A stretch of 64,000 nucleotides of DNA. It comes from Bryobacteraceae bacterium (GTDB lineage Bacteria > Acidobacteriota > Terriglobia > Bryobacterales > Bryobacteraceae). The number at the start of each line of letters is the position of its first letter. Position 1 is the stretch's first letter. The notes beneath the pieces were generated by a model. The model saw only the letters and a program-made list of their open reading frames with translations, was not told the DNA's origin and did no database searches. Below, piece by piece: positions 4,897-52,334 of this stretch. The position numbers were made by a program, and so were the translations under genes. The stretch is from the NCBI GenBank assembly GCA_025055455.1, contig JANWXD010000010.1, positions 1 to 64,000 on the forward strand. Reading direction: 5' to 3'.

Positions 4897-4910
4897 TGTA
4901 AACGCTCTCA
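4897..4910 (-). promoter_or_regulatory. LacI-family-type operator overlapping predicted +1
   Basis: Minus strand TGAGAGCGTTTACA, close to the TGWAANCGNTTNCA-type LacI/GalR palindrome with central CG; lies 3 nt after the -10 hexamer. Confidence 0.55.
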
Positions 4911-4913
4911 AAA

Positions 4914-4942
4914 TATATAGCCGTGTAACGGATGAAAGTCAA
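4914..4942 (-). promoter_or_regulatory. Sigma70-type promoter of the TonB-dependent receptor
   Basis: Minus strand TTGACT-17 nt-TATATA (-35 at 4942-4937, -10 at 4919-4914). Confidence 0.65.
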
Positions 4943-5051
4943 GCAAAAAAATTAACGGGAATGTGTTAGCGCCGCCCGCGCCGGGCGCATTCGTACCTCA
5001 AAAAACGAGCCCGAATCCAGCTCAGCGCTGGAAGGACCCTCCCCCGTCGAT

Positions 5052-5065
5052 TGTAAGCGCTATTT
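5052..5065. promoter_or_regulatory. Possible second LacI-type half-operator
   Basis: TGTAAGCGCTATTT; left half TGTAAGCG fits the LacI-family half-site, right half is degenerate. Confidence 0.3.
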
Positions 5066-5069
5066 TAGC

Positions 5070-7124
5070 TTATCTTGCAAGGAGTTCCGCCCGGGTGACG
5101 CTGGCGTGCGGAAATGTGTAGGAAAATTCTACGCCCGCAGGCACGAAGCTCTCGATCGGAACTACGGCCTCGGGGCGCATCTCGTTGTTGTGCTGGTAGA
5201 TGCTGGCCCCGGTGAGCGTCCAGATCCGCGCTTGTCCGGACGCGCGGAACCCGGTGAGCCGGATCCGCGCGGGCAGGTCGCGATAGAGGTGCCGGTTGAC
5301 GGCGAACACTGTCAGACGATCGCCCGCCTCGTTGAGCGCCGTCGTCACGTCCAAGTACGGGGTGTCAGGGATGTCCGGAATCCGGTTGTTGCCCTCCTTG
5401 ACGTCGTAGGCCGGGCCGGTGACGCGCGTCGCCACGGAGGTGGCGATGTCGGCGGTCGAATAGAGGCGAAAGGCGTAATAGGCCGGGGTTGCGTACACCC
5501 GGCTGCGCTTCTTCCAAATGCCGCCGAATTCGATCAGGCCGGTCATGTCCGCGATCGGCACGAAATCCGCGACGCGGATCAGCGTGTTGAGAAAGCCTGC
5601 GGCGCAAATGGCGCCCCCGAGGTTGTGGAACCGCGGCACGCGGTCATCCCGGCCCCAGAACAGCCACTCGGTGAAGGCGATTTGCACTCTGCCCCGGTGC
5701 GCGGCGTGTGCGTCGATCTGCGCCTTCATCTGGCGCAACAGCCGCTCGAGTCCTACCGGCAACGCGAAAGCCGCTTCCGCGACGAAATCCGGTGAGGCAT
5801 CCTGGCGGCGCACGTTGGCCGTGCCTACGACGAAATGGGTGGCCAGGTAGTCGAACGTTCCCGCAGGCAGCGCCAGAAGCCTCGCATTCCACTCCCGGAA
5901 GCGGTCCGGATCTTCGCCGGTGGCGATGAGCCGCGCCGCCGGGTCCACAGCCCGGACAGCGTCCCGGAACACTTGGGTCCGTTCGGCGGCCCGCTCGAGC
6001 GTGGGATAACCGATCTGGAACGTGCCCCAAAGCTCGTTGCCGAGCTCCCACAGCAGCCCGCCGCGACGGTCGCCCCAGCGCTCATTGACATAGCGGACCC
6101 ATTCGGCGGCCTCCTGCGGCGTGCCGCTTCCCAGATTGAGCGCGATCTGCGGCTCGGCGCCGATGAGGCGGCAAAAGCGCAGGAACTCGTCCGTGCCGAA
6201 GTGGTTGTACTCGGGGATGCCCCAGGCTTGGTTCAGCATCGAGACGCGGCGGTCCAGCGGTCCGACGCCGTCTTTCCAGTGGTAGCCGGAAGTGAAATTG
6301 CCTCCGAAACGCAGAAGCGGCGTGCGCAGGGCGCGCGACAGCTCGATCATTTCCGGCTCCATGCCGTCCACGTGATCGGCGGGAAACAGCAGGACTTGGT
6401 CCACGAAGGCGCGCCCTTCGTCGCGCAGCGCGATGACGAAGTCGGCCGGCTCGAGGGGCTCGATCTGCCCGCGTTGCAGCTCCAGTGCGAATTCGTAGCG
6501 CGCCCACTGCGTCCCGCTCAGGCGAACGGAAGCGCGGTGGAAGACGCTTCCAGGATCGTTCCGCCGTCGGATCGAGACTTCGAGTTCCGCCGGGCCGCTC
6601 ACGTGGCGCGCCCACAGGCTTCCGGTGTAGCGCAGAATCCGGTGCACCGGCAGATACACTCTCTGCCGCACGCCGGTTTCTTTGCCGGGCAGAGCCATGA
6701 TCAGCAGCGACCGGGAAGAGTTGGCGGCTTCGCCCCACCTGGGCTCGTAACGCCAGCCCTGGGCGTAGTCGAGCGGCTCCCAGGGAACCGGTAGGCCCAG
6801 GCCGGAGGCGCGCTCGAGGGCGGGGTTTTCTTCGATGAGTCGTTGGAGGTTCTGCACGCTCCAGAGCGCTTCTTCGAAGCTCGGGTTCTCGAGAACCTGC
6901 GCCCACAACCCGCCGTAAATGGCGCGCCCGATGGGTTCGAGGAACGTACCGAAGATCGTGCGCGGGATCCGGTAGGGGGCGCGTTGAGTGGCGTCAATCT
7001 CGACCAGCGCTTCCCACCGCTCACTGCGCACGAAGGTGTCGGCGGCCCAACCCGCCGTCGTCACCGTCAGCAGCAAACAGCTGTGCAAACGCTTTCTCAT
7101 TTCGCGCTCCGTTCCCCCAATCAT
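5070..7124 (-). CDS. GH51-like alpha-L-arabinofuranosidase (secreted)
   Basis: Likely start ATG near 7100 (MRKRLHSCLLLTVTTAGWAA signal peptide); GNELWGTFQIG and AFTEWLFWG motifs parallel the GH51 at 1-1161. Confidence 0.8.
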   Translation of the reverse strand: MIGGTEREMRKRLHSCLLLTVTTAGWAADTFVRSERWEALVEIDATQRAPYRIPRTIFGTFLEPIGRAIYGGLWAQVLENPSFEEALWSVQNLQRLIEENPALERASGLGLPVPWEPLDYAQGWRYEPRWGEAANSSRSLLIMALPGKETGVRQRVYLPVHRILRYTGSLWARHVSGPAELEVSIRRRNDPGSVFHRASVRLSGTQWARYEFALELQRGQIEPLEPADFVIALRDEGRAFVDQVLLFPADHVDGMEPEMIELSRALRTPLLRFGGNFTSGYHWKDGVGPLDRRVSMLNQAWGIPEYNHFGTDEFLRFCRLIGAEPQIALNLGSGTPQEAAEWVRYVNERWGDRRGGLLWELGNELWGTFQIGYPTLERAAERTQVFRDAVRAVDPAARLIATGEDPDRFREWNARLLALPAGTFDYLATHFVVGTANVRRQDASPDFVAEAAFALPVGLERLLRQMKAQIDAHAAHRGRVQIAFTEWLFWGRDDRVPRFHNLGGAICAAGFLNTLIRVADFVPIADMTGLIEFGGIWKKRSRVYATPAYYAFRLYSTADIATSVATRVTGPAYDVKEGNNRIPDIPDTPYLDVTTALNEAGDRLTVFAVNRHLYRDLPARIRLTGFRASGQARIWTLTGASIYQHNNEMRPEAVVPIESFVPAGVEFSYTFPHASVTRAELLAR

Positions 7125-32700: not shown

Positions 32701-33072
32701 ATGCTGGAAAACTTCCGGCACTTCCGTGCGGGGCCGGATCCGTTCGGCCGCACCTGGCAGGTGGATTTTCTTTGGCTTCAGACCGCCATCGCAATTCGTC
32801 ACAGCGACACCGTAGACGTGAAATTCCTGCTATCCGACGGAGATACTCGCCTGGAGAAAGTCATCGCCCTTCCCCATGCCGAACTGGTGGCCTTGAGCCA
32901 AAAAGCCGGCCGCCCCCTCACGGATCCGTGGTGCGCGCGGTTGGCCGCACTGCATCTGGTTCATATGATCGAGACTGGCGAGGATTTCGAAAAGAACCTC
33001 GTGACGGTGTCCCCGCACGATCTGGAAAAATACCACGCCATCCTCGAGCAGGCAGCGGCCGCCCGAAAATAG
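32701..33072 (+). CDS. Conserved-looking hypothetical protein
   Basis: 123-aa ORF (MLENFRHFRAGPDPFGRTWQVDFLWLQTAIAIRHSDTVDVKFLLSDGD...) 16 bp upstream of the PduS-like gene. Confidence 0.65.
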   Translation: MLENFRHFRAGPDPFGRTWQVDFLWLQTAIAIRHSDTVDVKFLLSDGDTRLEKVIALPHAELVALSQKAGRPLTDPWCARLAALHLVHMIETGEDFEKNLVTVSPHDLEKYHAILEQAAAARK

Positions 33073-33088: not shown

Positions 33089-34402
33089 ATGGATCTAGCG
33101 ACGAAGCTGCGCGAATGCGGCGTCGTGGGCGCCGGGGGCGCCGGGTTCCCCACCTACGTGAAAGCCTCGGCGCGCGTCGAGTTGCTAATTGCCAACGGCG
33201 CCGAGTGCGAGCCGCTGATTCACAAAGACGCCGAGCTGATGAAGCATTTCCCGGCAGAGATCGTCTCGGGGATGGAACTGATGCGCAAGGCCACGGGCGC
33301 GGGGCGGGCCCGGTTCGGAATCAAGAAAAAGAACGCCGAGGCGGTCGAGGCCATCCGCCCGCACCTGAACCCAGAGACAGCGGACTTCGTGTTTCTGGGC
33401 GATTTTTATCCGTCGGGCGATGAGTACGAGCTGGTCTACGAAGCGACGGGACGGCTCATTCCCCCGGCGGGCATTCCGCTTCAGGTCGGCTGCGTCGTCA
33501 ACAACGTCGAGACGCTCTACAACGTGCACTACGCGGCGCAGGGGGTCCCGGTGACGCGGAAGTTCGTCTCGGTGGCGGGAGCGGTGCGGGAGCCCAAAGC
33601 GTTCTGGGTTCCCGTAGGCACGCCGTTCCGCGACCTGATCGCGCTGGCCGGAGGAGCGACCACGTCGCGTGTAGGGGTGTTCGTCAGCGGCATCATGATG
33701 GGCACGCTGACTTTCGATCTGGACGAAGTCGTGACGCGCACGACGGCGGGACTGATCGTGCTGCCGGAGGATCACTACCTGATCATGCGCATGAACCGGC
33801 CGATCGCGGCCATGAACCACATCGGCAAGTCCGCCTGCGACCAATGCAGCTACTGCACCGAGTTTTGCCCGCGCTACCTGCTCGGATACGACGTCCAGCC
33901 GCACAAAGTGATGCGCAGCCTCGGCTTCAGCGCCACGGGCGCCGAGATTTGGAACCAGTGGGCGGAGCTATGCTGTGGCTGCGGCTTGTGCACGCTCTAT
34001 GCTTGTCCCGAGGATCTGTTTCCGAAGGAGGCCTGCGATCAGGCCAAATCCCACTTGCGCGCCGCCGGAATCAAGTTCCAGCAGGCGCGTCCGCCCATGG
34101 TTCACCCCATGAAAGCATACCGGCGGGTCCCGCTGCCGCTGCTGCGCAAGCGCCTGAAAGTGGAGGAGTACGAGAGCGAGACGCCGTACGCGCCCATCGA
34201 GCACCGGCCGGCATGGGTCCGTATCAAGTGGCGCCAGCACGCGGGGCGGCCGGCGCGTCCCGTAGTGAAGGAAGGCGACCGAGTAGAGCCCGGCGCGGTG
34301 GTCGGGCAGGTGGATCCGCCGGATCTGGGCGTGCCGGTGCATGCGAGCATTGGCGGCAGGGTGGCGCGCATTGCCGAGGAGTGGGTGGAAATTCAGTCGT
34401 GA
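33089..34402 (+). CDS. PduS-like/RnfC-family Fe-S flavoprotein (SLBB domain, two 4Fe-4S motifs)
   Basis: GVVGAGGAGFPTYVK, NGAECEPLIHKDAELM, VVNNVETLYNV, CDQCSYCTEFCP and CCGCGLCTLYACPEDL, C-terminal KWRQHAGRPARPVVKEGDRVEPGAVVGQV...HASIGGRV. Confidence 0.85.
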   Translation: MDLATKLRECGVVGAGGAGFPTYVKASARVELLIANGAECEPLIHKDAELMKHFPAEIVSGMELMRKATGAGRARFGIKKKNAEAVEAIRPHLNPETADFVFLGDFYPSGDEYELVYEATGRLIPPAGIPLQVGCVVNNVETLYNVHYAAQGVPVTRKFVSVAGAVREPKAFWVPVGTPFRDLIALAGGATTSRVGVFVSGIMMGTLTFDLDEVVTRTTAGLIVLPEDHYLIMRMNRPIAAMNHIGKSACDQCSYCTEFCPRYLLGYDVQPHKVMRSLGFSATGAEIWNQWAELCCGCGLCTLYACPEDLFPKEACDQAKSHLRAAGIKFQQARPPMVHPMKAYRRVPLPLLRKRLKVEEYESETPYAPIEHRPAWVRIKWRQHAGRPARPVVKEGDRVEPGAVVGQVDPPDLGVPVHASIGGRVARIAEEWVEIQS

Positions 34403-34411
34403 GGGCAGGAG

Positions 34412-34963
34412 ATGGCAAGGAACTCGATCGGGCTGATCGAACTCGGAAGCATCGCCGCGGGCTATGAGGTGACCGACGCGATGCTCAAAGCGGCGGACGT
34501 GGAGCTGCTGCTGGCGCGCTCGATCTGCTCGGGCAAGTACATGGTGATGGTGCGGGGGGACGTGGCAGCGGTAGAAGCCAGCGTGGAGGCGGGCAGCCGG
34601 GCGGGCAGTTTCTCGTTAGTGGATCGCTTCGTGATCCCGAACGTGCACGAGTCCATCTTTCCGGCGATCGCCGGCACCAGCAAGGTGGAGGCGCTGGAGG
34701 CGCTGGGCATCCTGGAGTCCTTTTCGGTGGCGTCGCTCATCGAGGGGGCCGACGCAGCGGCCAAGGCGGCCAACGTCCGGCTGATCGAAATCCGGCTGGC
34801 GATGGCGTTGGGAGGCAAGGCGTTCGCTACGCTGACGGGAAGCGTGGCGGCCGTGCGTAGCGCCGTGGAGGCGGGCGCTCAAGTGATCGGCCGCAAGGGG
34901 CTGCTCGTCAACAAAGTCGTGATTCCCCAGCCACGGCCGGAGCTGCTGTCGGAAATGATATAA
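34412..34963 (+). CDS. BMC-domain shell protein with two tandem BMC domains, PduT-like
   Basis: IGLIELGSIAAGYEVTDAMLKAADVELLLARSICSGKYMVMVRGDVAAVEASVEAG... and second domain ALGILESFSVASLIEGADAAAKAANVRLIEIRLAMALGGKAFATLTGSVAAVRSAVEAG; Cys39 (SICSGK) aligns with the PduT cluster Cys (TICPGK). Confidence 0.9.
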   Translation: MARNSIGLIELGSIAAGYEVTDAMLKAADVELLLARSICSGKYMVMVRGDVAAVEASVEAGSRAGSFSLVDRFVIPNVHESIFPAIAGTSKVEALEALGILESFSVASLIEGADAAAKAANVRLIEIRLAMALGGKAFATLTGSVAAVRSAVEAGAQVIGRKGLLVNKVVIPQPRPELLSEMI

Positions 34964-38676: not shown

Positions 38677-40200
38677 CTACCGGGCCGTAGGCGCGCGGGC
38701 GGCCCGGTTGGTTGCCTGCAAGGCCAGCATCTGGGCCTGGCGGGCGTAATCGAGGGCCTCGTTGAGCTCTCTGAAGACCTCCTCCGGGTTGTGGAAGCCC
38801 ATGCTATTTTCGGAAACCGCCAGGTTCTCCCAACGCACATGCGCCCACTGGTGCAGTTGGACCGCACGTTGGAGGAGCGCGCCATCCACGGGCGTGCCTT
38901 GCTGAGAGGCTTGTTTTGCAGCGGCGATGGCGTCAATACTCTCGCTCAGCGCTTGCTGCACCCGCTGTTGCGCAGCATTGACGTGCTGCTGCACGCGCAA
39001 CACCTGGGCCCTCAGAACCTCCGGCGTCACCGTGTGGCACTGAGCGCACGGAAAGGCGCCGAGTGACTGCTGATTGAGGTGCCGGTCAATATAGCGCAGC
39101 GGCGAGACCAGCCAGTGCGAGGTTACCTGGCGCCCGTTGAAAGTCACCTTGGGCATGTGACAAGTGACGCAGGACGCCCCGGCGCGCTCGTACTTGCTCT
39201 CCCAAAACAGCTCCGTCTCCGGATGCTGGCTCTTGATCAGCGGTTCGTTGAGGAGGCTGTGGACCCAGTCCTGCTGGTAGTTGAACGCCTTCCGGTAATA
39301 GTCATCGAGGTCTCGAACTTTGCGCCAGCTAAAGACAAAGCGCACCTGTTTGTCTGCGCCGGGGCCGCACACGTATTCCACGTGGCACTGGGCGCAGACG
39401 AGAATCGCCTTCTGCTGGCTGTCGGCGTCCTCGAAGCGACGCGCGTTCTTCTCCGGCCAGTAGGGGTTCACGCCGCGCTCCGCGATGGCCGCCTCCAGCC
39501 CCTTGTTGATGACGCGGAGACGCGCGCCGTGAGGATCATGGCACTGCGTGCAAGAGGCGCCGTAGTCGAGCATCTCTTTGGGAATCCGCGCTATGACGTC
39601 CTCCCACTTGGCGGACTCGACCAATGTGACACCCTTCCACTGCCGGCCCCAGTAGTACGCCACCGGCGTGGCCTTGCAGTTCAAACAGGCGGCGTTTTTC
39701 GGGCGCTTCACGTCAATGTGGTCCCGAAGAATGAACTTGTGCGAGCGGTCCTCGTTGTACTCCTTGGTGAAGCCGTGGCCAGCGACGATCTTGTTGTAGA
39801 GGGGAAAATCCTTTGTCTTGGGGTGTGCCTGTGGATCTGCGGGCGTGCCCCCGAATTGGCCGGGCGTACCCGCTTCGCTCATGAAATAGGTCTCATACTG
39901 AAACCGGTGGCAAACCCCGCAGCTTTCCGCACGGAAGTCCACGACGGGCAGCACCTTGGAAGGATCCTGCGCCTTACGGTGCTCGTCGGCTCGCGCGTGG
40001 CATAGCGAGCAACTCAGGCCGCGGTGCGCGCTCTCGGCGTGGGACTCGGCAAAGTCCGAGTGACAAGGGCTGCAGGTCTCCCGTTCCGCGCCCACACCCG
40101 GATTGTCAAGCGCCGGGCCTTGAGCTTGCCAGGCGGACCAAGCCAAGAAGCCGAAGAGGGGGACGAAAAGCATGAGGCACAACGTGGAGCATCGCGGCAT
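38677..40200 (-). CDS. Octaheme c-type cytochrome, octaheme nitrite reductase (ONR/TvNiR)-like
   Basis: Heme motifs in order CSPCH, CSLCH, CGVCH, CLNCK, CTQCH, CAQCH, CVTCH, CAQCH; NrfA-type active site CHVEY...KSQHPE; RBS GGGAGG before ATG 40200. Confidence 0.88.
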   Translation of the reverse strand: MPRCSTLCLMLFVPLFGFLAWSAWQAQGPALDNPGVGAERETCSPCHSDFAESHAESAHRGLSCSLCHARADEHRKAQDPSKVLPVVDFRAESCGVCHRFQYETYFMSEAGTPGQFGGTPADPQAHPKTKDFPLYNKIVAGHGFTKEYNEDRSHKFILRDHIDVKRPKNAACLNCKATPVAYYWGRQWKGVTLVESAKWEDVIARIPKEMLDYGASCTQCHDPHGARLRVINKGLEAAIAERGVNPYWPEKNARRFEDADSQQKAILVCAQCHVEYVCGPGADKQVRFVFSWRKVRDLDDYYRKAFNYQQDWVHSLLNEPLIKSQHPETELFWESKYERAGASCVTCHMPKVTFNGRQVTSHWLVSPLRYIDRHLNQQSLGAFPCAQCHTVTPEVLRAQVLRVQQHVNAAQQRVQQALSESIDAIAAAKQASQQGTPVDGALLQRAVQLHQWAHVRWENLAVSENSMGFHNPEEVFRELNEALDYARQAQMLALQATNRAARAPTAR

Positions 40201-40554
40201 CTGACACCTCCCTGTATTGCTCAGCTCGGCACCCGGAACCCGCGCCGTCACAGGCGCTGCCAGTCACGCTTTGCCGGCAAACACCGGATATTTCGGATCC
40301 GCGGCTATTATATGACGGTCCTCGGATCGCGCTGACGAAGCTCTCGCCTAGTCCGGCCAGTGCGACATCGCACCAGCCGCTTGGCCTTCGCTGCAGCGCG
40401 AGCTGAGGCCACGCCCTGCAAGCCGAACAGGGGTCACGGTCGACTCACTTTTGCGTAGCGAACCTCTTGGTTCTCGTGGGTAAAGGTGCGGGCTCAAATG
40501 GTCGTCTCGCGGCGCGCGGTCCCGCTGGCGGGTGTCCCCATGCCCGTGCCGCCC

Positions 40555-51599: not shown

Positions 51600-52334
51600 T
51601 CAGGACGGCGATGAAACGGCTTGCTCGCGCAAGCGCGTCTTCCAATCCTCGAGGATCTTGACGGTCGCTGTGGCTCCGAACCGGTCGGCACCCGCTTCGT
51701 ACGCCGCCAGGGCCATATCCAACGTACGGACGCCTCCAGCGGCCTTGATGCGCACGTTCGGCCCCGCATAGCGGCGCATCAGCCGAAGGTCTTCGAGCGT
51801 GGCGCCCGAGGGGGCGAACCCCGTCGAGGTTTTCACGAAGTCTACACCCGCACGTGTGGCGATCTTACAGGCAATGATCTTGAGTTCGTCGGTAAGGTAG
51901 GCATTTTCGAAAATGACCTTGAGCAGAACGCCGGATTCGTGACAGGCATCCGCGATCTGGCGCAATTCCGTCTCCACATATTGGAAGCAGCGGGAGACCA
52001 GCTTGCCGATGTTTAGCACCATGTCGACCTCGCGGGCGCCGCGGCGGATCAGATCGCGGACCTCGTACAGCTTGGCCGCCGTCGTCGAGGAGCCGTGGGG
52101 AAAGCCCGCCACCGAACCTACCGCCACATCCGTCCCGCGCAGCCACTCGACAGCCAAATCCACGTCGGACGGACGCACCGAAACGCTGGCGACGCCATAC
52201 GCGCGTGCGATGCGACATCCTTCCTCGACTTGTTCCTCGGTCAGCTCGGGACGGAGCAATGAGTGGTCGATCATGCGCGCCAAGCTTTCGTAGCTAGTAA
52301 GTGGGGGCCGGCTCAGTTCGTGGATTGGATCCAT
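51600..52334 (-). CDS. deoC: Deoxyribose-phosphate aldolase
   Basis: MIDHSLLRPELTEEQVEEGC, SVAGFPHGSSTTAAKLYE, GAREVDMVLNIGKL, VDFVKTSTGFAPSGATLEDLRLMR, KAAGGVRTLDMALA. Confidence 0.95.
   Translation of the reverse strand: MDPIHELSRPPLTSYESLARMIDHSLLRPELTEEQVEEGCRIARAYGVASVSVRPSDVDLAVEWLRGTDVAVGSVAGFPHGSSTTAAKLYEVRDLIRRGAREVDMVLNIGKLVSRCFQYVETELRQIADACHESGVLLKVIFENAYLTDELKIIACKIATRAGVDFVKTSTGFAPSGATLEDLRLMRRYAGPNVRIKAAGGVRTLDMALAAYEAGADRFGATATVKILEDWKTRLREQAVSSPS

Follow-up and report, generated by a model that had tools for sequence, protein, structure and literature searches.

We found that a PduS-like flavoprotein and a PduT-like BMC-T shell protein, encoded side by side in a genome of the Bryobacterales group (Acidobacteriota), form a satellite of an ACI-type bacterial microcompartment (BMC) rather than a module that functions without a shell. 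We think it likely that the pair is dedicated to this compartment and exports the electrons of luminal NADH through a cluster in the shell pore. The stretch of DNA that we analyzed (the window) is 64,000 nucleotides long and is part of contig C11 (103,628 bp, or 104 kb). The genome comprises 3.95 Mb in 145 contigs and is 98.75% complete. We recovered the details that the original prediction gave for this locus: the coordinates of the two genes, the lengths of the proteins (437 and 183 aa), the 9-bp gap between the genes, the two cysteine motifs of the flavoprotein, the codon for Cys39 (34526-34528), and the 16-bp gap to an upstream ORF of 123 aa. The features of the locus are as follows.

32701-33072, + strand: 123-aa ORF, 16 bp upstream of the pair
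33089..34402, + strand: gene for the PduS-like flavoprotein (437 aa), assigned by Pfam, alignment, tree, and fold
33128..33151, + strand: GAGGAGFP motif of the FMN-binding domain (aa 14-21), conserved in the PduS references and similar in RsxC
33836..33871, + strand: first [4Fe-4S] motif, CDQCSYCTEFCP (aa 250-261), all cysteines invariant in 16 homologs
33971..34006, + strand: second [4Fe-4S] motif, CCGCGLCTLYAC (aa 295-306), all cysteines invariant in 16 homologs
34196..34384, + strand: RnfC_N domain (barrel-sandwich hybrid, aa 370-432), C-terminal as in the PduS references
34412..34963, + strand: gene for the PduT-like BMC-T shell protein (183 aa), with two PF00936 domains
34523..34537, + strand: pore loop ICSGK, including Cys39, a predicted [4Fe-4S] ligand on the trimer axis

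The domains of the 437-aa protein, as identified by Pfam, are the FMN-binding Complex1_51K (E = 1.9e-41), SLBB, the dicluster ferredoxin Fer4_17, and a C-terminal RnfC_N, which matches the order described for PduS (PMC6325248). RnfC_N is also C-terminal in the PduS references, whereas it is N-terminal in RnfC. Similarly, the spacing of the second cluster motif is that of PduS and is one residue longer than in RsxC. The protein is colinear with PduS from Salmonella (38% identity over 95% of its length) and less similar to RsxC from E. coli (29% over 76%). In a tree with 21 rows, it and all of the PduS references are split from RsxC with 100/100 support. The predicted structure is confident outside the cluster region, where pLDDT is under 50 (residues 243-252 and 275-316). 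We conclude that the protein is PduS-like, and its conserved motifs predict that it carries FMN and two [4Fe-4S] clusters.

The 183-aa protein has a double PF00936 domain (E = 2.7e-48 in Pfam), and its model (pLDDT of 92) matches 3nwg (TM 0.93, rmsd 1.0) and the PduT structure 3pac (TM 0.90). We call it PduT-like, not PduT, because it scores 126.9 bits against TIGR02526, the NCBIfam equivalog model for PduT, which has a cut-off of 250.3. Cys39 aligns with Cys38 of PduT, which is the cluster cysteine, and is invariant in 27 homologs that were collected by similarity; the 80 named homologs were collected with a pattern that contains the pore motif and hence provide no independent evidence for it. 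The pore loop is CSGK here and CPGK in PduT from Pdu, and it fits the motif C-P/S/A-G-K for BMC-T proteins with a [4Fe-4S] cluster in the pore (PMC6325248). Four tandem BMC proteins that lack the pore cysteine, from PVM-like loci, branch far from the 183-aa protein. The order of the domains, the trees, the folds, and the invariance of Cys39 all argue for the original reading of the two proteins as a PduS-like/PduT-like redox pair.

The pairing of the two proteins is more than chance and is nearly obligate: we surveyed 200 genomes from the order, and every one of the 74 that encode the BMC-T encodes the flavoprotein too. Four further genomes of the order have the flavoprotein but no detected close BMC-T; in at least one of these (G198), the flavoprotein gene is at a contig end. 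The two genes are within 200 bp of each other in 75 of 80 named genomes, and adjacent pairs span the Bryobacterales and relatives, Blastocatellia, Ignavibacteria, Melioribacteraceae, an Armatimonadetes MAG, and others. One carrier is a named strain, Stygiobacter electus 09-Me. In G064, G120, G178, and L106, the two genes are on separate contigs, so they may not need to be adjacent. We also noticed that the BMC-T of L100 (Ignavibacteria bacterium SKW60) is 83% identical to the window's, though the genome is labeled as another phylum; this may reflect either a recent transfer or a mis-binned contig.

The original prediction reported no other BMC genes around the pair. This is true of the window and also of all 103,628 bp of contig C11, where a search for PF00936 and PF03319 identified just the pair's BMC-T. 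In particular, the contig runs 40 kb further than the window and contains no more BMC genes, which argues against a complete BMC locus just outside. Genome wide, however, both families are present on contig C101, and PF00936 is present on contig C57. The main operon, on C101, encodes the following proteins.

L008:9253-10026: class II aldolase, with a C-terminal helix (ERFELTRSELIALVSEAMKARA) after a linker
L008:10076-10366: BMC-H
L008, up to 11238: three BMC-P

On C57, another BMC-H lies beside a CoA-acylating aldehyde dehydrogenase (AldDH) of 617 aa, whose top score is to acetylating acetaldehyde dehydrogenase. We had considered the main locus to be shell-only and FRAG-like, but we dropped this when a search for PF00596 found the aldolase there, which makes the locus ACI-like; the aldolase gene runs antisense to a spuriously extended ORF, and GC content at the third codon position had guided the first choice of genes. 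The order aldolase, BMC-H, and three BMC-P recurs in 17 of 20 other genomes that we inspected, and the remaining three have the shell genes with no aldolase recognized alongside. Across 13 loci, the tail of the aldolase is conserved after a variable linker, which is the pattern expected of an encapsulation peptide, and we consider the C-terminal helix to be a putative encapsulation-like peptide.

A satellite locus contains only PF00936 or PF03319, with the main BMC locus elsewhere (Axen 2014; Sutter 2021). This describes our pair, whose main BMC locus is on another contig. The ACI type comprises an aldolase with a C-terminal EP, a BMC-P triplet, a BMC-H, and an AldDH on a satellite, and was placed mainly in subdivisions 4 and 6 of the Acidobacteria (Sutter et al. 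2021, PMC8217296). The genome studied here, also from the Acidobacteriota, has a class II aldolase with an encapsulation-like helix, a BMC-H, a BMC-P triplet, and an AldDH satellite, which carries its own BMC-H. The main locus of the ACI type also carries a hydroxyacid dehydrogenase (PF00389 or PF02826); none was recognized beside the main operon here, among the genes around 165 kb of C101. The missing neighbors are not an artifact of the assembly, as two relatives whose genomes are single contigs likewise have the parts scattered over three sites, at distances of about 0.5 to 3.2 Mb: the pair, the main operon, and the AldDH are at about 0.83, 2.34, and 2.82 Mb in G039 and at 3.42, 0.17, and 1.11 Mb in G049. 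Because the gene content of C101 and C57 fits the ACI type, we conclude that the pair belongs, as a satellite, to a shell whose genes are at other sites, which is one of the two possibilities that the original prediction had raised. The FRAG types (Sutter et al. 2021) also have a BMC-P triplet and shell genes at several places in the genome, but the main operon here includes a signature-type aldolase. The same pair is common in Ignavibacteria and Melioribacteraceae, where FRAG has been reported, and in the Ignavibacteria this two-gene redox satellite is probably attached to a FRAG-type compartment.

How might the pair be used? The enzymes that usually recycle NAD+ and CoA in the lumen of BMCs are Fe-ADH and PduL. 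A search of the genome for Fe-ADH, one of several dehydrogenases that could recycle NAD+ (2-hydroxyacid dehydrogenases and zinc-ADH are others), found none (the control was found in 13 of 14), and the genome contains no PduL (PTAC) either, so both of the usual recycling enzymes are missing. Given this, electron export is probably the simplest use of the pair. In the mechanism that we propose, the BMC-T trimer would sit in a facet of the shell, with its three Cys39 residues holding one [4Fe-4S] cluster on the three-fold axis, and the PduS-like protein would dock on the luminal face of the trimer. As the cargo genes suggest, the class II aldolase would release an aldehyde, which the encapsulated CoA-acylating AldDH would convert to acyl-CoA while forming NADH. 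The PduS-like protein would oxidize this luminal NADH and pass the electrons from FMN via its two [4Fe-4S] clusters to the cluster in the pore, which would hand them to a cytosolic acceptor. Luminal NAD+ would thereby be regenerated without an encapsulated alcohol dehydrogenase, with the pair replacing Fe-ADH. Known PduS binds FMN and two Fe-S clusters, oxidizes NADH, and interacts with PduT, whose cluster, at +99 mV, can take electrons from NADH (PMC6325248).

Electrons might instead be imported: a reduced carrier outside the shell would donate to the pore cluster, and the PduS-like protein would supply a luminal reductase or a radical or cobalamin enzyme. Corrin reduction in Pdu and glycyl-radical activation in GRM compartments have been proposed as such cases; a role as corrin reductase has been ascribed to PduS (PMC2982820), and GRM loci often encode PduS/PduT (PMC6325248). 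However, we did not recognize a cobalamin-dependent or glycyl-radical enzyme in the main locus or in the AldDH satellite, and the reported potential of PduT favors taking electrons from NADH. Import therefore seems unlikely, and we prefer export.

The original prediction suggested that the 123-aa ORF could be a third component. It is a real gene, on the same strand as the pair, and homologs with 62-71% identity likewise precede the pair in G053, G164, and G195. However, it adjoins the pair in just four lineages and is missing upstream of the pair in the other loci examined, including 79 of the 80 named loci; also, it matches no model in Pfam or NCBIfam. A role as a functional partner of the pair is thus quite improbable. 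More broadly, the neighbors of the pair are unrelated genes in each lineage. When we clustered the flanking genes of the 80 loci, no family besides the pair was found in more than 15 of them, though the gene caller under-calls low-GC genomes, and these flanks contained no further BMC domain, no recurrent partner, and no recurring gene for a dedicated electron acceptor. DeoC (51600-52334) was considered as an SPU signature and dropped, as it is 17 kb away and is not near the pair in the relatives' loci. A multihaem nitrite-reductase-like protein is encoded a few genes downstream of the pair (38677-40251, - strand), and its score for the c552 family is far under the equivalog cut-off.

The other possibility raised by the original prediction was a shell-less module, with the trimer and the flavoprotein cooperating in electron transfer in the cytosol. 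Nothing else of a BMC is encoded in the window or the contig, and 6 of the 78 flavoprotein carriers in the order have no match to BMC-P. However, genes for BMC-H, three BMC-P, and cargo are present in this same genome, and within the set of 200 genomes from the order, 72 of the 78 carriers encode BMC-P, versus 53 of the 122 other genomes (Fisher p of about 3e-13, from counts that ignore shared ancestry). All 21 of the sampled carriers labeled as outside the Bryobacterales have BMC-P, with at least three each. As for the six exceptions, completeness is less than 93% for five (the other one, G125, is listed at 99%), and four still have the BMC AldDH. We therefore strongly disfavor a shell-less module. 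The complete PVM-like BMC loci of G038, G065, and G110 include a more distant pair (about 44% and 50-57% identity), along with PduL, AckA, AldDH, a class II aldolase, and BMC-P, so such pairs are tied directly to microcompartments. The satellite seems to be accessory or replaceable, as 53 of the 125 genomes in the order with BMC-P lack the pair; in the loci of these genomes that we inspected, neither the main operon nor the AldDH had a recognizable substitute dehydrogenase nearby.

Finally, the idea that the 437-aa protein is the RnfC of a membrane Rnf complex, beside a BMC gene by chance, can be dismissed: its best match in NCBIfam is rnfC (223.7 bits, under the cut-off of 245.95) and its predicted structure matches RnfC structures, but the genome has no match to RnfD/RnfE (PF03116), the weak matches in the order that are likely to be true RnfC score far lower, and the position of RnfC_N, the second-cluster spacing, and the tree are all of the PduS type.

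While examining the cargo, we noticed that the BMC AldDH of at least 16 relatives (homologs of G000:C57:62057-63907) has one in-frame TGA, which is always followed by CTG (loci L079-L084, L097, L098, L187-L191, and L193-L195). The TGA is just after an encapsulation-like helix, and the residues before it are usually Gly-Tyr/Phe-(Gly/Ser/Thr). The 63-81 codons 3' of the TGA keep a conserved C-terminal domain, and the differences by codon position (820/683/2199) indicate that these codons are under selection at the protein level. The 16 genes form a single clade from diverged genomes, and the window's genome has no stop there. We favor programmed readthrough of the stop, which would yield short and long forms of AldDH. 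Selenocysteine seems less likely: SelB was present in all 26 genomes tested, but we saw no shared downstream hairpin by eye in single-sequence folds. An Rfam scan of three of these loci gave no matches. By eye, a module with the pattern (I/L)xTPxAxD recurs on AldDH, class II aldolase, EutT-like, and PduL-like cargo; Pfam shows no domain at the module of AldDH and aldolase. The module sites are as follows.

L009:10057-11907: C-terminus
L058:4898-6016: N-terminus
L182:4122-4886 and 4904-5806

PduS and PduT are a known kind of protein. The Pdu versions (Salmonella, Citrobacter) share with our pair the domain order, the FMN and two-cluster motifs, the gene order PduS-PduT, the pore cysteine, and the folds. 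However, the pair is just 38% and 42% identical to them, is under the NCBIfam cut-off for PduT, and lacks a neighboring diol dehydratase, PduO, or any other BMC gene. The two-gene pair is also known from GRM, Eut-type, and PVM-like loci, where it accompanies several unrelated BMC pathways (PMC6325248; Acetoanaerobium; G038/G065/G110), but there the pair is inside the BMC locus, whereas here it stands alone, with unrelated neighbors in each lineage. The main text of PMC8217296 does not mention a PduS/PduT satellite of ACI, but its supplementary tables may already list the pair; we did not find a dedicated two-gene redox satellite of ACI in the papers that we consulted.

PMC6325248 raises the question of which function PduS/PduT serve outside of B12 and glycyl-radical compartments. 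The ACI-type system described here is a stripped-down case: it consists of a five-gene operon for the shell and aldolase plus two satellites, one for AldDH and one for the two redox genes, and its genome encodes neither Fe-ADH nor PduL. Since the known loci contain few other redox parts, electron export across a BMC shell should be directly testable. More tentatively, the shell of these Acidobacteriota and Ignavibacteriota compartments may itself be the device that regenerates NAD+, with the conduit wholly replacing a luminal alcohol dehydrogenase and coupling the organelle's NADH to a cytosolic or respiratory acceptor. If so, this would be an oxidative, non-fermentative metabolosome.
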